Assembly (NCBI RefSeq): GCF_024699925.1
Contig: NZ_JAJOMX010000001.1
Span: forward strand, 1,526,001-1,590,000
Origin: Mesorhizobium sp. J428
GTDB lineage: Bacteria > Pseudomonadota > Alphaproteobacteria > Rhizobiales > Rhizobiaceae
Length of the DNA stretch: 64,000 nt
Direction: 5' to 3'
Of this stretch, positions 2,531 through 7,649 are shown in pieces. A program made the position numbers and the translations under genes. Within the stretch, counting starts at the first letter, position 1, and each line of letters opens with the position of its first letter. Under the pieces are notes generated by a model. The model did not search any database. It worked only from the letters and a program-made list of their open reading frames with translations, and was not told the DNA's origin.

Positions 2531-2611
2531 GGGCCTGCGTTCGGGCGTGCGAAGGCGTCGCCCGTGCAGGGTTTGCGCGGGCGGAAACAGGGCAGGCTAC
2601 GCTGGAGTTGC

Positions 2612-3070
2612 TCAGGACGTGTCGCGCAGCTCGACCGGCACGGCGGCGGCGAGTGCAAGCCTCTCGATGAATGCGTCGAGGCCGTGGATCGCGTTGCCCT
2701 CATTGCCAGCCTCGTCGGAGGCCAGCCCACGGTGCAGGAACGACAGGCGGCACAGATGTGCCGCGACGGCCTGCATGTAGTGCCCGAATGCCCTGAGTGA
2801 ATCGGCAATGTCCTCGGCATCGAAGGGATTGCTGCCGAAGCCGGCCGGCATTGGGACGGGCGTCCAGGTCCCGCGTGCGGAGTTCCGGAGCGTGCCTTCG
2901 ACATAGGCCCTGAGTAGCTCATTCGCCTGCCAGGCGGCCCACAGCACGCACCAGCGGACCCAGAACGACCGGCCGGCGGCCTGTTCGGCCATGTCGGCGA
3001 TCGAGAAGAGGCGCATGACGATCCTCGCCTTTAACGCCTGTTCCCTCCCCGCCTTCGCCCTCCAGCCCAT
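2612..3070 (-). CDS. Hypothetical protein at the edge of the tol island
   Basis: This 152-aa protein is on the opposite strand to ybgC and tolQ. The sequence is mainly alpha-helical with a Trp-rich stretch (SFWVRWCVLWAAWQANELL) and no signal peptide. I do not recognise a family. Two starts are possible: ATG at 3070, preceded by GGGGAG, and ATG at 3016, preceded by GAGGA; the upstream one is used. High GC codon use resembles the core genome rather than the AT-richer reverse transcriptase next to it, so it may mark the boundary of the island. Confidence 0.5.
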   Translation of the reverse strand: MGWRAKAGREQALKARIVMRLFSIADMAEQAAGRSFWVRWCVLWAAWQANELLRAYVEGTLRNSARGTWTPVPMPAGFGSNPFDAEDIADSLRAFGHYMQAVAAHLCRLSFLHRGLASDEAGNEGNAIHGLDAFIERLALAAAVPVELRDTS

Positions 3071-3372
3071 CGCCGGCTCCCCGTTTCACCGGCCGTAGTG
3101 TGGGGCATGTTTGGAAGGCGTGGATGAAAAGATTTCGGACGCTAACGGGAACAAGGGGTTAGGTGAGAACGGGCGGAAATCGATGCATCGCGGAGAGGCG
3201 CTGTGCCGCTCGCGGGGGAGGTAGACGCAGGATGACAGGGATGGGGTGGATTGCGGAAGGTCCGCTTCTGGGAGCGTAGTCGCGCAAGCGGCCGTTCAGA
3301 CAGCCGCCGCGCTTCGGCAGCGGACGGCACGTATCTCCTTCCCTCGCGCCAGGGCGATCCTCGAAGCAGGCA
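3071..3372. other. Intergenic stretch between the hypothetical gene and the reverse transcriptase
   Basis: About 300 bp with no convincing gene. It is the 3' flank of the reverse transcriptase. I looked here for a group II intron domain V hairpin on the minus strand and saw none. No clear terminator is visible. Confidence 0.4.
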
Positions 3373-4656
3373 CTAGGCCATCTCGGACTTGGCCTCCTTT
3401 AATCGCCAGACCAGCGGATTGCGCTCCTGCCGGGCGAGCTCCTCGATACCCAGTAGGGACGCCGCATCCTTGATGTCACGTTGCCTCTTGATGTCTCGAT
3501 ACTCGCCGAGGAAGGCCCCTACCAAGCCAGCCATTTTTGCATCGATTCGGCCAAACAGTGCATCATCGTTACAGAAGCGGTAGTGCTTGCCCCACCCGCG
3601 AATTATGCTGTCTGTCCGATTGAGGGTCGCTACGAGTGAATGTTTTCGCGGGATGGCCTCACCTCTTTTTGTCTCCCGCATACCCTTAGCGCTTTCGTTG
3701 AAGCGCTTCTTTACATTCAACTCCAGTTTCGAAATCGCCTTCGATGAGGGACGGATAAAGCCATTATTAAACTCGATTCCAAGCCAGTCGAACTTGTTCG
3801 AAACTCTAAGTGGTGCCGTCGAAGACTTTTCCTCGGAGAGGGTCATCCCGAACTCGGCTAGGATGGTGATGGCCAGCCGCATACGAGCTTTGGCGGCCGC
3901 TCCTGAAGGCGCGAGAATGATAAAGTCGTCGATATACCGAACGCACACGCAGTCGCCTTCGTTCATGCGACGATCAAAGTCGTGAAGCAGGATGTTGCCC
4001 AGCAGAGGCGACAAAGAATTGCCCTGGGCGACCCCAATAGCCTCTATGGGGAAGGCCTGTGCTTTCTCCTTAAGCTCGGCCATATTTGATAGTTCGAGCC
4101 TAATTGCATCCTTAAACAGCGCCACGAACGTTGGATCTTCTGTGACTTTCGCAATAATGTCTGTCACGAGAGGTTTAGGTATCTTGGTGAAGAAGGCGCG
4201 TATGTCGGCAAACGCTACGTGGGTGCCGCCATTGCCGATTGCTGTGAGCACAGCTTGGACAGCGGCGGGGACCGCTGCAAGCCCATTCTTCTGCTTCTTG
4301 ATACCGCCGAAGCTGTTGGGATTGTGAAAATACGGCTTGAGTCCGGGAACCGTCTCCAGCGCCTCAAGTACCGCGCGCTGGACGATACGCGAACGTAGCG
4401 GGGCCAGCACGAGCGGACGGAACTTGGCGCTTTTGCTACCGTCTGCGTTCTTCTTGGCTACTGGAATTCCCTTGGCTTCGGGAAATCGGAAGCTGCCGGC
4501 AGACAGCTGACCACTTAGAACGTTGATGTTCTTCTGTGGATCGGCCGCGAACTCATCAACCTCAGCGCGGACGTCGAGCGAAGTGGAGGTCTGCGCATTC
4601 TCTTGGATGACGCGCCATGCTTTGTGCAGCGTTGCCTTGCTCTGCACCAATTTCAT
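3373..4656 (-). CDS. Reverse transcriptase, group II-like, without an intron
   Basis: This 427-aa RNA-directed DNA polymerase carries the diagnostic blocks: KFRPLVLAPLRSRIVQRAV (about 78-96), the first catalytic Asp in FADIRAFFTKIP (D151), AQGNSLSPLLGNILL (210-224) and YIDDF (241-245, catalytic D243 and D244). A thumb/X-like segment WLGIEF...LNRTDSIIRGWGKHYRFCN follows (291-363), as in group II intron proteins, but there is no HNH endonuclease domain and no intron RNA is visible. It also lacks the SQ-type motif of diversity-generating elements. I use ATG 4656 (MKLVQSKATLHKAW); a TTG at 4677 would add seven residues. Base composition is visibly more AT-rich than the flanks, suggesting transfer. 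It lies beside a PIN-like gene and a duplicated 127-bp non-coding block, in an arrangement like defence-associated RTs with an upstream RNA. The exact RT class is unknown. Confidence 0.88.
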   Translation of the reverse strand: MKLVQSKATLHKAWRVIQENAQTSTSLDVRAEVDEFAADPQKNINVLSGQLSAGSFRFPEAKGIPVAKKNADGSKSAKFRPLVLAPLRSRIVQRAVLEALETVPGLKPYFHNPNSFGGIKKQKNGLAAVPAAVQAVLTAIGNGGTHVAFADIRAFFTKIPKPLVTDIIAKVTEDPTFVALFKDAIRLELSNMAELKEKAQAFPIEAIGVAQGNSLSPLLGNILLHDFDRRMNEGDCVCVRYIDDFIILAPSGAAAKARMRLAITILAEFGMTLSEEKSSTAPLRVSNKFDWLGIEFNNGFIRPSSKAISKLELNVKKRFNESAKGMRETKRGEAIPRKHSLVATLNRTDSIIRGWGKHYRFCNDDALFGRIDAKMAGLVGAFLGEYRDIKRQRDIKDAASLLGIEELARQERNPLVWRLKEAKSEMA

Positions 4657-4722
4657 GAGAGGCGATGGCGATCTCAAAAGTCCTTAGGGTCCTGTTTGTG
4701 AGCCCTACCCGTCCGACAGGCG

Positions 4723-4849
4723 CTGACCACTGCAGAGGTACGTTGCCGCCCATTCTGCGCGGATGAGACCGTGACCTGCGCCACCGCCTCGCCGCCGCAC
4801 TCCACCTCGAACGCCCTGGATAATCCAGCCGCCGACATGAAGGCGAATG
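4723..4849. repeat. 127-bp direct repeat, copy 1
   Basis: Nearly identical to 5102-5228, in the same orientation and offset by 379 bp. 126 of 127 bases match; the single difference is A at 4823 versus T at 5202. It begins CTGACCACTGCAGAGG and ends GAAGGCGAATG. It sits just upstream of the reverse transcriptase start on the minus strand. Confidence 0.95.
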
Positions 4850-5101
4850 CCAACCCGATGAACCAGCGCGTCAGGCGACGCGGACGGCTCCCGGCCCGTG
4901 CTGACTTGGCACGTTTTTGCTTGCAGCGCGCATAAGTTGCACCTCCTACCTGACCTTAGCCTTTTTGGGACTTGGGGCAAGGGCGCCGCTCGCTCGCGCG
5001 GCGGGACCGCCCGGCCCGTGAAATAAATGGGTCCAGCCGCCAAACAGGAACCTGAAACAGAGAGGGTTACGGCTAGCTTCATCTCATCGGAACGGTCGGG
5101 T

Positions 5102-5228
5102 CTGACCACTGCAGAGGTACGTTGCCGCCCATTCTGCGCGGATGAGACCGTGACCTGCGCCACCGCCTCGCCGCCGCACTCCACCTCGAACGCCCTGGAT
5201 ATTCCAGCCGCCGACATGAAGGCGAATG
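5102..5228. repeat. 127-bp direct repeat, copy 2
   Basis: Second copy of the block at 4723-4849, separated from it by 252 bp. The boundaries are abrupt: flanking bases on both sides differ between copies, as expected for a recent duplication or copy event rather than for diverged homology. Confidence 0.95.
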
Positions 5229-5531
5229 TTCAGATGCAAATTATGCACAAGCCGCAGATGTTCTTCAAGTGTTCTCTCGAAGACATCAGCCATTATTCAC
5301 ACCCAGAAGCTAACTCAGCCTGGACACGCTACTTGGCGTTTCACTCGGGGACCCCACGCCCTCTGCGCCTTTGTCGTCCCAGCACGGTTGACCCGCTTGG
5401 GGGCGCCAACGACCCTCGGTATGACAGGTAAGCGGTCGTTCCTGGACGTTGGCTCTCTCTACGTTAGCCGAACATTTCTCAGCAGCGGGGTTGGGAGATA
5501 GGCCATTCAGTTAGCCGCTGCACCCCGCGGG

Positions 5532-6503
5532 TCAAAGCTCATCAAGGGAGGTTAGGAGCCGTGTACCATAAGTCTTGCCGAGCCGGGCCTGTAGGGCAAG
5601 ATTGACGAACGTCTTCTCCCCGATGACGATATCGGCGAGCGGCAAGACTGTGGCAAAGGCCGACATGTCGCGTAGGTCGTTCTCCGCGATCGGCCTTATC
5701 TGATCCTCGAGTCTGACAGCGAGTTCCCTCTCCGTAGCGAGGATCGGTACGTCAGCAGGGATACTACGGACCAACGAAGGTTCAATGTCGCGTACATCAT
5801 TCCAGTTCAGCCCAAGCCGTCGGCCAGTTGCAAGAATGAAGTCAAGCTCATCGACAATCAAGCGCGCGGCGTAAGCGCGTTTGCGCAACGCCAACGTTTC
5901 GGAGGCGACGATAGCCCGGCGTGCTTCGATCCCGGCGACGAGATCGGCCGAGCCAGCACTGAATCGCCTAACACCTTCGCGCCTCACATCCTCATCACTG
6001 GCGGTTAGATAGTCGAAAAGCGCCCTTGCGGGGTCTGAGCGCATGTATTCGAGGACCGCGTCTGATAGCGCGATGCCGAACACCCCGGGCGAATAATCGG
6101 CGGCCGCTTCGAACCATAGATTGGACAGGAACCAGTGCGACTCTGGCGATGCTCGCCTGATCGCAAATTTGTCGGCCAGATATGCTGCGAGCGTCTCATC
6201 CAATATACGACGGCGGCCGCGAAAGACCCGGCCCCCGCTGATCGTCACTTGGACTCGCGCCATATTGGCCCGGCGGACCGGGTCATTAATCTTCAAGGTT
6301 TCGTAAATATTTGCGAAGCTTAGTGGGACGATAAAGCGCTGCTGCTGAAGCGCTTCGACCACTTTTACCAGCCTTACGTGATCCTGCGGATAGCTGGTCT
6401 TGTCCCAAGCGCCACGTGCCATCGACACCCATGCATTTTGATCGAGATATAGAATTTTTTCCACGGTTTCAGAAGTATCGCTAGCAATAGGCTTCGGCAA
6501 CAA
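5532..6503 (-). CDS. PIN-like nuclease domain protein
   Basis: This 323-aa protein begins with a beta-strand and acidic residue typical of PIN-fold ribonucleases (KILYLDQNAWVSMARG, D21). It has an internal acidic position (PLSFANIYETL, E68) and a C-terminal cluster ENDLRDMSAF with PLADIV and GEK (about 274-297), matching the three or four metal-binding acids of that fold. The C-terminus LGKTYGTRLL resembles standalone PIN-like proteins of accessory regions. No antitoxin partner lies next to it, so a classical VapC role is unlikely. The reading start is uncertain (TTG 6503 used). It is upstream of and co-oriented with the reverse transcriptase, 875 bp apart. Assignment to the PIN fold is from motif pattern only. 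Confidence 0.6.
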   Translation of the reverse strand: MLPKPIASDTSETVEKILYLDQNAWVSMARGAWDKTSYPQDHVRLVKVVEALQQQRFIVPLSFANIYETLKINDPVRRANMARVQVTISGGRVFRGRRRILDETLAAYLADKFAIRRASPESHWFLSNLWFEAAADYSPGVFGIALSDAVLEYMRSDPARALFDYLTASDEDVRREGVRRFSAGSADLVAGIEARRAIVASETLALRKRAYAARLIVDELDFILATGRRLGLNWNDVRDIEPSLVRSIPADVPILATERELAVRLEDQIRPIAENDLRDMSAFATVLPLADIVIGEKTFVNLALQARLGKTYGTRLLTSLDEL

Positions 6504-6935
6504 TGGCGTCGCTTCCTGTCGGAGACTTTCATGCTGTAACGGACCTGCTTCAGGCGGACAGTCTGCTGCTTCGCCGGTGCATCACTCGTCCCTCCGCTCT
6601 ACGGTTGTAGTGTTCCTCGCACCACGCGGGTCGGGCACCTCCATCTCACTTCCACACCCTGCCGATGATCCACCGGATCATCGGCTCGCCGCTCGCGGCG
6701 ACCGGGCGTTCACGCCTCCTTAACCATAACGGTCCATTAAGAACCAAAGGGAAATCGTAGTGAATCCACTGCGCCTTCCTTTGACCAAAATTGCTCACGA
6801 AAAGGCGCCATCTGGCGCATTCGGGGCATTTCCGGCGGTCGGGGGACGAAAGACCCGGCAACCGGTGCGGAACGATTTGGGACGGTGCGCGTGGGCTAGC
6901 CGCTGCAAGGCCCGTCTTTCTGGGACAGTCACTTC
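6504..6935 (+). promoter_or_regulatory. tolQ upstream region
   Basis: 432 bp without a gene between the PIN-like gene and tolQ. It probably carries the tol operon promoter. A TTAACCAT element at 6720-6727, followed by CATTAAG about 10 bp later, resembles half-sites of the alphaproteobacterial cell-cycle regulator CtrA. The same octamer occurs upstream of pal. No further gene or repeat is seen. Confidence 0.45.
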
Positions 6936-7649
6936 ATGGAAACTTTGCCTCTCGCAACCACCGGCGGCGAACTCTCGATCTGGGAACTCTTCTGGCAGGC
7001 CGGCTGGGTCGTCAAACTGGTGATGATCGGCCTGCTCGCCGCCTCGATCTGGACCTGGGCCATCATCATCGACAAGACCATCGCCTACGGCCGCATGCGC
7101 GCGGCGCTGAACCGCTTCGAGCAGGTGTTCTGGTCGGGTCAGTCGCTGGAGGAGCTCTACCGCACCCTCTCCGACCGCAAGACGACCGGCATGGGCTCGA
7201 TCTTCGTCGCCGCGATGCGCGAGTGGAAGAAGAGCTTCGAGAAGGGCGCGCGCACGCCGATGGGCCTGCAGATGCGCATCGACAAGGCGATGGACCTGGC
7301 GCTGTCGCGCGAGATGGAGCGGCTGGAAAGCCGCCTCGGCTTCCTCGCCTCGGTCGGCTCGGCCGGCCCGTTCATCGGCCTGTTCGGCACGGTCGTCGGC
7401 ATCATGACCTCGTTCCAGGCGATCGCCGGCTCGAAGTCGACCTCGCTCGCGGTCGTCGCGCCCGGCATCGCCGAGGCGCTTCTGGCCACCGCCATCGGCC
7501 TGCTGGCCGCCATTCCGGCCGTCATCGCCTACAACAAGCTGACGGCCGACGCCGGCAAGATCGGCGCGCGCATGGAAGGGTTCGCGGACGAGTTCTCCGC
7601 CATACTCTCGCGACAGATCGATGAGAAGGTCGGCCAGAAGGCGGCCTGA
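6936..7649 (+). CDS. tolQ: TolQ inner-membrane proton-channel subunit
   Basis: The 237-aa TolQ forms, with TolR, the proton-driven motor that energises TolA for outer-membrane constriction and Pal recycling at division. There are three transmembrane segments: about 22-45 ([20 protein letters not shown]), 140-165 ([20 protein letters not shown]) and 180-205 ([20 protein letters not shown]). The conserved ion-path Thr/Pro pattern [10 protein letters not shown] and [11 protein letters not shown] is intact. It is followed 24 bp later by tolR. Confidence 0.96.

Follow-up and report, generated by a model that had tools for sequence, protein, structure and literature searches.

What is a reverse transcriptase (RT) with a non-coding leader doing beside a gene for a PIN-like protein, between the ybgC and tolQ genes of Mesorhizobium sp. 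J428? The question arises in a stretch of 64,000 nucleotides (assembly GCF_024699925.1, contig NZ_JAJOMX010000001.1, positions 1,526,001 to 1,590,000), which we call the window and number from its first letter. The first-pass annotation of this DNA had suspected a defence system made of RT, leader and PIN-like protein, a pair of RT and nuclease-like gene that it did not recognise among the described ones. We found instead a G2L4 (group II intron-like 4) RT with cis elements of its own. Its leader holds a pair of direct repeats, A and B, and this two-repeat layout is present in every G2L4 locus that could be assessed. We propose, with a probability of about one half, that leader and RT form one compact retroelement, in which the RNA of copy A would be reverse-transcribed and overwrite copy B.

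A G2L4-type reverse transcriptase

The RT gene occupies positions 3373–4677 on the minus strand and is listed as 434 amino acids from TTG 4677; a downstream ATG (MKLVQS) is an equally possible start. The protein matches RVT_1 (8e-22), and its closest solved structures are the G2L4 RTs 9d5x and 9d4s (E 1e-52), followed by a group II intron RT at 1e-13. On these matches the RT belongs to G2L4, and it resembles the Pseudomonas aeruginosa enzyme of the two structures in RT family, in active site and in being a free-standing gene. The active site is YIDD rather than YADD (RYIDDF in the window); among the 15 loci with paired repeats described below it reads YIDD in 13, FIDD in L059 and YVDD in L064. 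The RT3a stretch is also longer than in a group II intron RT. In its accessible part, the published description names a 9-amino-acid RT3a insertion with two conserved arginines as a G2L4 feature (PMC12337344). When the window RT is aligned with 9d5x, this insertion is aligned and two amino acids shorter, and the arginine positions hold K and E, the E standing opposite R191.

The first-pass annotation had seen no domain V of a group II intron, and our searches agree. Rfam gave no match to an intron RNA in the window at gathering score and none in 4650–5540 at E up to 5, and the group II intron model TIGR04416 scored 148 bits, below its cut-off of 300. The NCBIfam Drt models reached 10.9–47.2 bits against cut-offs of 200–450, and matches to the RT_UG17, UG4 and Drt models were weaker than to the general RT model (PADLOC models were used without cut-off). 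The matches in NCBIfam, PHROG, PADLOC (best 25 of 55) and PDB were to general, group II, Drt/UG, retron, CRISPR, LINE-1 and G2L4 RTs; no RT of a diversity-generating retroelement (DGR) was among them, and no DGR model was run by name. On these searches, filing the RT as a group II intron, DRT or retron was rejected.

A direct repeat pair in the leader

The leader holds a 127-bp direct repeat twice, with 1 mismatch between the copies, so the first-pass idea that this leader matters was well placed. Copy A (5102–5228, minus strand) is apparently non-coding and template-like. Copy B (4723–4849, minus strand) lies just upstream of the RT, within a small hydrophobic frame. The whole unit spans at most ~1.95 kb (3373–5322, minus strand). 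Its upstream end is set by homology that continues as far as 5322 in one Devosia locus only, and its downstream end by the RT stop, where homology with three close relatives also stops. Compared with two Devosia loci, the leader is 88.4–96.3% identical and the RT DNA 80.5–81.2%. A search with the leader DNA gave no plasmid match and, in the own genome, a single place.

For each G2L4-type RT we compared the upstream DNA, up to 1100 bp, against itself, and we counted 15 loci that have a full-length RT and at least 990 bp of upstream DNA. These are the window, four loci of the same order (L056–L059), four from other orders of the class (L060, L062–L064), the plasmid locus L051 and five contigs of viral collections (L038, L065, L066, L068, L070). 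L051, from an annotated P. aeruginosa plasmid, serves as a stand-in for the characterised family because its RT matches 9d5x at 2e-119. The repeat pair was found in 15/15 loci, 103–138 bp long and 96.9–100% identical. Counted from the RT start, copy A lies between -581 and -352 and copy B between -201 and -24; start-to-start distances are 328–392 bp, spacers 218–258 nt, and copy B ends 24–69 nt before the RT.

Six loci were not counted. L052, L055, L067 and L069 have 79–219 bp of upstream DNA, and L052 shows copy B only. In the other two, L053 and L054 of Devosia, copy A alone is present and the RT lacks its first ~76 codons: copy B and the RT N-terminus are missing, and the copy A region is fused straight to RT codon ~76/77 with the frame open. 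The junctions differ, and the two different internal deletions have almost identical right ends.

With a pair defined as at least 80 bp at 90% identity or more, none of 78 further 1100-bp windows taken from these loci had one, and in the 64-kb window 1 of 58 tiles did, which was the element itself. No pair was seen in L072, L078 and L083, other RT loci of the same genomes, nor in the weak match L071. L039 and L087, which we take to be DGRs from their layout, each hold a pair, of 113 bp at 90.3% identity in L039 and of 114 bp at 85.1% in L087.

The two copies evolve in concert

By blastn (E 1e-3) the repeats fall into eight families without mutual DNA similarity: one clade of seven loci, one pair and six singles. 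In seven comparisons within the clade, which reuse loci and are hence not independent, A and B agreed with each other while the loci differed at 3, 17, 17, 39, 38, 43 and 3 sites; differences in one copy only numbered, in the same order, 2, 1, 0, 0, 1, 0 and 3. Between L062 and L066, for example, 39 sites differ with both copies agreeing and none in one copy only. An A- or B-specific difference common to two loci was not found in any of the seven. At each locus A and B thus evolve in concert, whereas repeats of different families have diverged past recognition.

In 8/8 locus pairs the RT gene is less conserved than either copy and than the spacer; between L051 and L065 the copies are 100% identical, the spacer 96.6% and the RT 78.4%. 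For copies of 130 nt to stay identical while they share dozens of substitutions, something must actively homogenise them, either the RT or recombination. Six of the 15 loci have no mismatch between A and B at all, and 3 of 14 mismatches fall at an adenine of copy A. Nine of ten inner mismatches lie in the 5' half (one-sided 0.011; some are adjacent, so not all are independent), which fits 3'-to-5' copying weakly.

A decayed group II intron with chance repeats would explain why the RT is related to group II (148 bits with TIGR04416). However, that score is below the cut-off, there is no intron RNA, and the repeats occur in every assessable locus with their copies kept alike, so this reading is barely credible.

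Copy B lies in a coding frame in the clade tested

The small open reading frame (ORF) region lies at 4674–4933 on the minus strand. Its ATG, at 4933, opens one frame, whereas the hydrophobic frame that passes through copy B is another and ends at 4674. In 15/15 loci B is crossed by an open frame that has a hydrophobic stretch (maximum 17-residue mean 1.17–2.64). An earlier coding test with unanchored frames was uninformative. We repeated it on the 21 locus pairs of the seven-locus clade with the frame fixed, chosen for its hydrophobic stretch. This frame gave a pN/pS of 0.55 and zero stops, the other two 1.01 (70 stop-bearing codon pairs) and 1.29 (44), and the substitutions by codon position in the hydrophobic frame were 220, 206 and 345. 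By this substitution pattern copy B is protein-coding and under purifying selection in the clade.

The small ORF begins with MQKRA in L051, L064 and L065. In L060 the block has a TTG, and the window has the block without a start codon; its ATG, behind an AGGAGG, is in a frame other than the hydrophobic one. Near the ORF start lies a run of five adenines (4914–4918, AAAAAC). L060, L051, L064, L065 and most of the L057 clade have the run at the corresponding position, and AAAAAC recurs in several families. Here the start codon of some loci is not in the hydrophobic frame, and a programmed frameshift is possible judging from the motif.

Complementary flanks and predicted promoters

The 3' flank of copy A (x, 5093–5101) is complementary to that of copy B (x', 4707–4715), both on the minus strand. 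We scored the first 20 nt 3' of A and B in one representative per family, with G-U pairs and one mismatch allowed. The complementarity summed to 199 over the eight representatives against a permuted mean of 137, and 1 of 20,000 permutations, which may be the identity itself, attained this sum; the count was the same at 30 and 40 nt. The lowest scores were those of the window and L056. Such complementarity is what a target-primed or fold-back reaction would need as primer and template.

Upstream of copy A we predict by eye a promoter, P1 (5240–5268, minus strand; TTGAAG-N17-CATAAT). TTGAA stands 34–42 nt upstream of A in 9/15 loci and 5/8 families against a background of 2.2% in 24-nt windows. 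The binomial value for families (3e-7) is optimistic because we settled on the motif with the windows already in view. A weaker predicted promoter, P2, with a Shine-Dalgarno-like AGGAGG (4942–4980, minus strand; TTGCCC...CTAAGGT, by eye), precedes the small ORF, and a CAAAAA...TA block near it recurs in other families. The predicted folding of the leader RNA was mixed: copy A with its 5' flank gave a z of -3.4, and stretches with part of copy B and its 3' flank, whose extents differ from the copy A stretch, gave -0.6 to +0.7.

How copy A could rewrite copy B

The proposed retroelement would run in the order P1, repeat A, spacer with P2, small ORF with repeat B, and G2L4 RT. Copy A would be transcribed from P1, and the RT would copy this RNA with x' annealed to x as primer. 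The resulting cDNA, antisense to A, would pair with B and replace its strand. Copy A would then serve, through its RNA, as a faithful master for the C-terminal portion of a small protein that is exported or anchored in the membrane, presumably the effector and perhaps a membrane-acting peptide; the direction would be DGR-like, with no hypermutation.

As far as the accessible part of the paper goes, G2L4 RT anneals short complementary 3' ends and carries out snap-back synthesis (PMC12337344). We favour the RT as the homogeniser because this priming fits x' on x, because the G2L4-type RT of L059 (6179–7921) carries a C-terminal RNase H domain (PF00075, 6e-25), and because of the mismatches in the 5' half. 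More tentatively, and at somewhat short of an even chance, G2L4 RTs, rather than being domesticated repair enzymes that act alone, may drive a third prokaryotic template-copying retroelement beside DGRs and retrons. In it, A RNA would be written faithfully onto repeat B of the small membrane protein, primed from the flanks, by a ~2-kb cassette that passes between genomes.

Several observations weigh against the copying of A onto B. Seven of the 15 loci form a single clade, and the coding test covers that clade alone. The 60 nt upstream of A, where P1 should lie, are less conserved than the RT gene in 7/8 locus pairs (42.9–66.1% identity in seven, 81.4% in one), and further upstream there is no conservation in the eight pairs, which argues against a tidy upstream edge. 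P1 and P2 are by-eye predictions, and TTGAA is absent in 6/15 loci. The hydrophobic stretch is weak in the window (1.44) and in L056 (1.17), the two lowest values. Ahead of B, the hydrophobic frame of the window has no start codon but a TTG right next to the repeat, and the frames of L058, L059 and L070 have no ATG, GTG or TTG there. In the window, either translation would depend on a frameshift or the small ORF has died.

Two further points are that RecA gene conversion between the repeats would homogenise the copies as well, and that the P. aeruginosa G2L4 RT has a published role in double-strand break repair, as described in the accessible part of the paper (PMC12337344). In a different explanation, A RNA would pair via x with x' ahead of the RT start and tune RT translation, both copies would be RNA bound by the RT, itself simply the known repair enzyme, and RecA would homogenise the copies passively. 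The closeness of x' to the RT start would suit such regulation, recombination between repeats is ordinary, and the repair role is already published. However, RNA-only roles do not predict the protein-level selection on copy B in the tested clade, and direct repeats so close together should be lost by recombination, yet both are kept in 15/15 loci. We regard this explanation as unlikely.

The cDNA of A might also act as an antitoxin. It would be antisense to the copy B part of the small-ORF mRNA and silence a toxic membrane peptide, and a phage that interferes with the cDNA or the RT would free the toxin, in the manner of retron defence. In keeping with this, all 15 loci have the hydrophobic frame through B, nine have the promoter-like motif upstream of A, and the element of the window lies in a defence hotspot (see below); the cDNA is antisense only if A matches B. 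On the other hand, an antisense 130 nt long can bear mismatches, so that 96.9–100% identity through dozens of shared substitutions is hardly to be expected from selection alone, and several of ten other G2L4 loci that we viewed sit, by eye, among seemingly ordinary genes. Silencing by the cDNA is in our view improbable, and we retain faithful copying of A onto B as the preferred reading.

Relation to known retroelements

In the accessible literature the G2L4 RT is published as a free-standing repair enzyme, whereas here it comes with repeats, a small ORF and complementary flanks. The accessible parts of four G2L4 papers do not mention paired repeats (PMC12337344, PMC13015716, PMC4244168, PMC4424553); an earlier mention elsewhere is possible.

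The layout is most readily compared with DGRs, which likewise have a non-coding template-like repeat, a near-copy in a coding gene, an RT beside both and a pairing element immediately downstream (3') of the coding copy. According to the accessible part of the source, DGR homing requires a structure at that position, which in DGRs is a local hairpin (PMC3240598); here the flank of B pairs with the flank of copy A. No hit places the window RT in the DGR type, and the target is a tiny hydrophobic ORF with coding demonstrated in the seven-locus clade alone. A hypermutating DGR was rejected because the repeats are nearly identical and their mismatches are not concentrated at adenine.

Like a retron, the element has a non-coding RNA upstream of its RT, and the complementary x and x' may recall the complementary a1 and a2 segments of retrons. 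It differs in that the RT is of another family, no msr/msd is recognised, and the template is duplicated and protein-coding. With DRT/UG systems such as DRT2 the element has in common a non-coding leader for its RT and a place in a defence hotspot, but the Drt/UG matches are the weaker ones and the best solved relatives are G2L4 RTs. On the accessible literature, the element as a composite has not been described before and belongs to no known family; this is judged on layout, and it can alternatively be read as a non-mutagenic DGR.

The maintained pair of coding and non-coding repeats gives the G2L4 family a candidate RNA template, protein and target, and the function of G2L4 thereby becomes directly testable. 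If faithful copying is right, a faithful template-to-gene copying device would exist beside the hypermutating DGRs, the repair activity of G2L4 might be a by-product of the copying reaction, and the element could serve as a writer of ~130-bp segments.

Distribution of the unit and its neighbours

The PIN-fold protein is encoded at 5532–6503 on the minus strand. The PIN fold proposed in the first-pass annotation is supported by a structure model, in which a large helical part lies between the two halves of a PIN-like core. It shares this fold with PIN/VapC-type proteins but differs from them in the helical part and in having no matching Pfam, NCBIfam or PADLOC family.

In the class sample the RT was found in 2/385 genomes and the PIN protein in 2/385, both together only in Mesorhizobium sp. 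J428. Across loci of 4–17 kb, the PIN gene was absent from all 20 other G2L4 loci and a G2L4 RT from all eight other PIN loci. A single defence system of RT, non-coding RNA and PIN protein would account for two adjacent genes on the same strand in a hotspot, but in this sample the PIN gene never co-occurs with the RT elsewhere and the G2L4 unit is complete without it, so we consider such a system very unlikely. The RT unit and the PIN gene look like two separate cargos of one hotspot. Viral scans for the PIN protein and for a leader motif found nothing. Two distant PIN homologues (36–40%; L040, L041) lie on rhizobial plasmids, near patatin-ThiF-E2 genes and near SIR2 and AAA genes.

Plasmids and phages searched with the window RT gave nothing close; one P. 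aeruginosa plasmid was reached via another G2L4 RT (31%). Rescans with the RTs of L064, L051 and L057 added no G2L4 locus, and genus searches gave no new unit (1/7, 2/37 and 1/14 genomes, all loci already known). The P. aeruginosa unit (L051) has a TIR gene, a recombinase and an integrase in its vicinity. L066 resembles a Mu-like prophage; several other G2L4 loci lie by eye between apparent housekeeping genes. A second RT of the own genome (L083, G000:C1:295032-295661) is retron-like, and its C-terminal part appears TIR-like by eye.

The ybgC-tolQ junction as a defence hotspot

The island itself is real: ybgC ends at 2530 and tolQ starts at 6936, and the 4.4 kb between them have a lower GC content. 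The first-pass annotation took the interval (2531–6935) for a variable defence slot inside a core cluster, and a comparison of seven genus genomes, including that of Mesorhizobium sp. J428, supports this. Five of the seven junctions carry cargo (one of them split over two contig ends), one is nearly empty (~0.3 kb, G536) and one is cut by a contig end (G538). The cargo is a PARIS-like AriAB protein in G535 (1e-56), a GHKL/HATPase_c_3 protein in G129 and a protein with a weak TIR match in G537 (E 2.5e-4, below the Pfam cut-off). G030 has CBASS genes at two contig ends, with QueC on the ybgC side and a cyclase (8e-118), a 2TM effector (2e-65), OGG and TGT on the tolQ side. The ybgC-tolQ junction is a defence hotspot in this genus.

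On the ybgC side of the window lies an interspersed multicopy repeat of ~580 bp (2611–3190), which contains a 152-amino-acid ORF on the minus strand. It makes up most of the 18 matches of a 5.8-kb query in the own genome and has further places in G000, G535, G537 and others. DNA related to it (64–86%) adjoins ybgC in L031, L032, L033 and L036.

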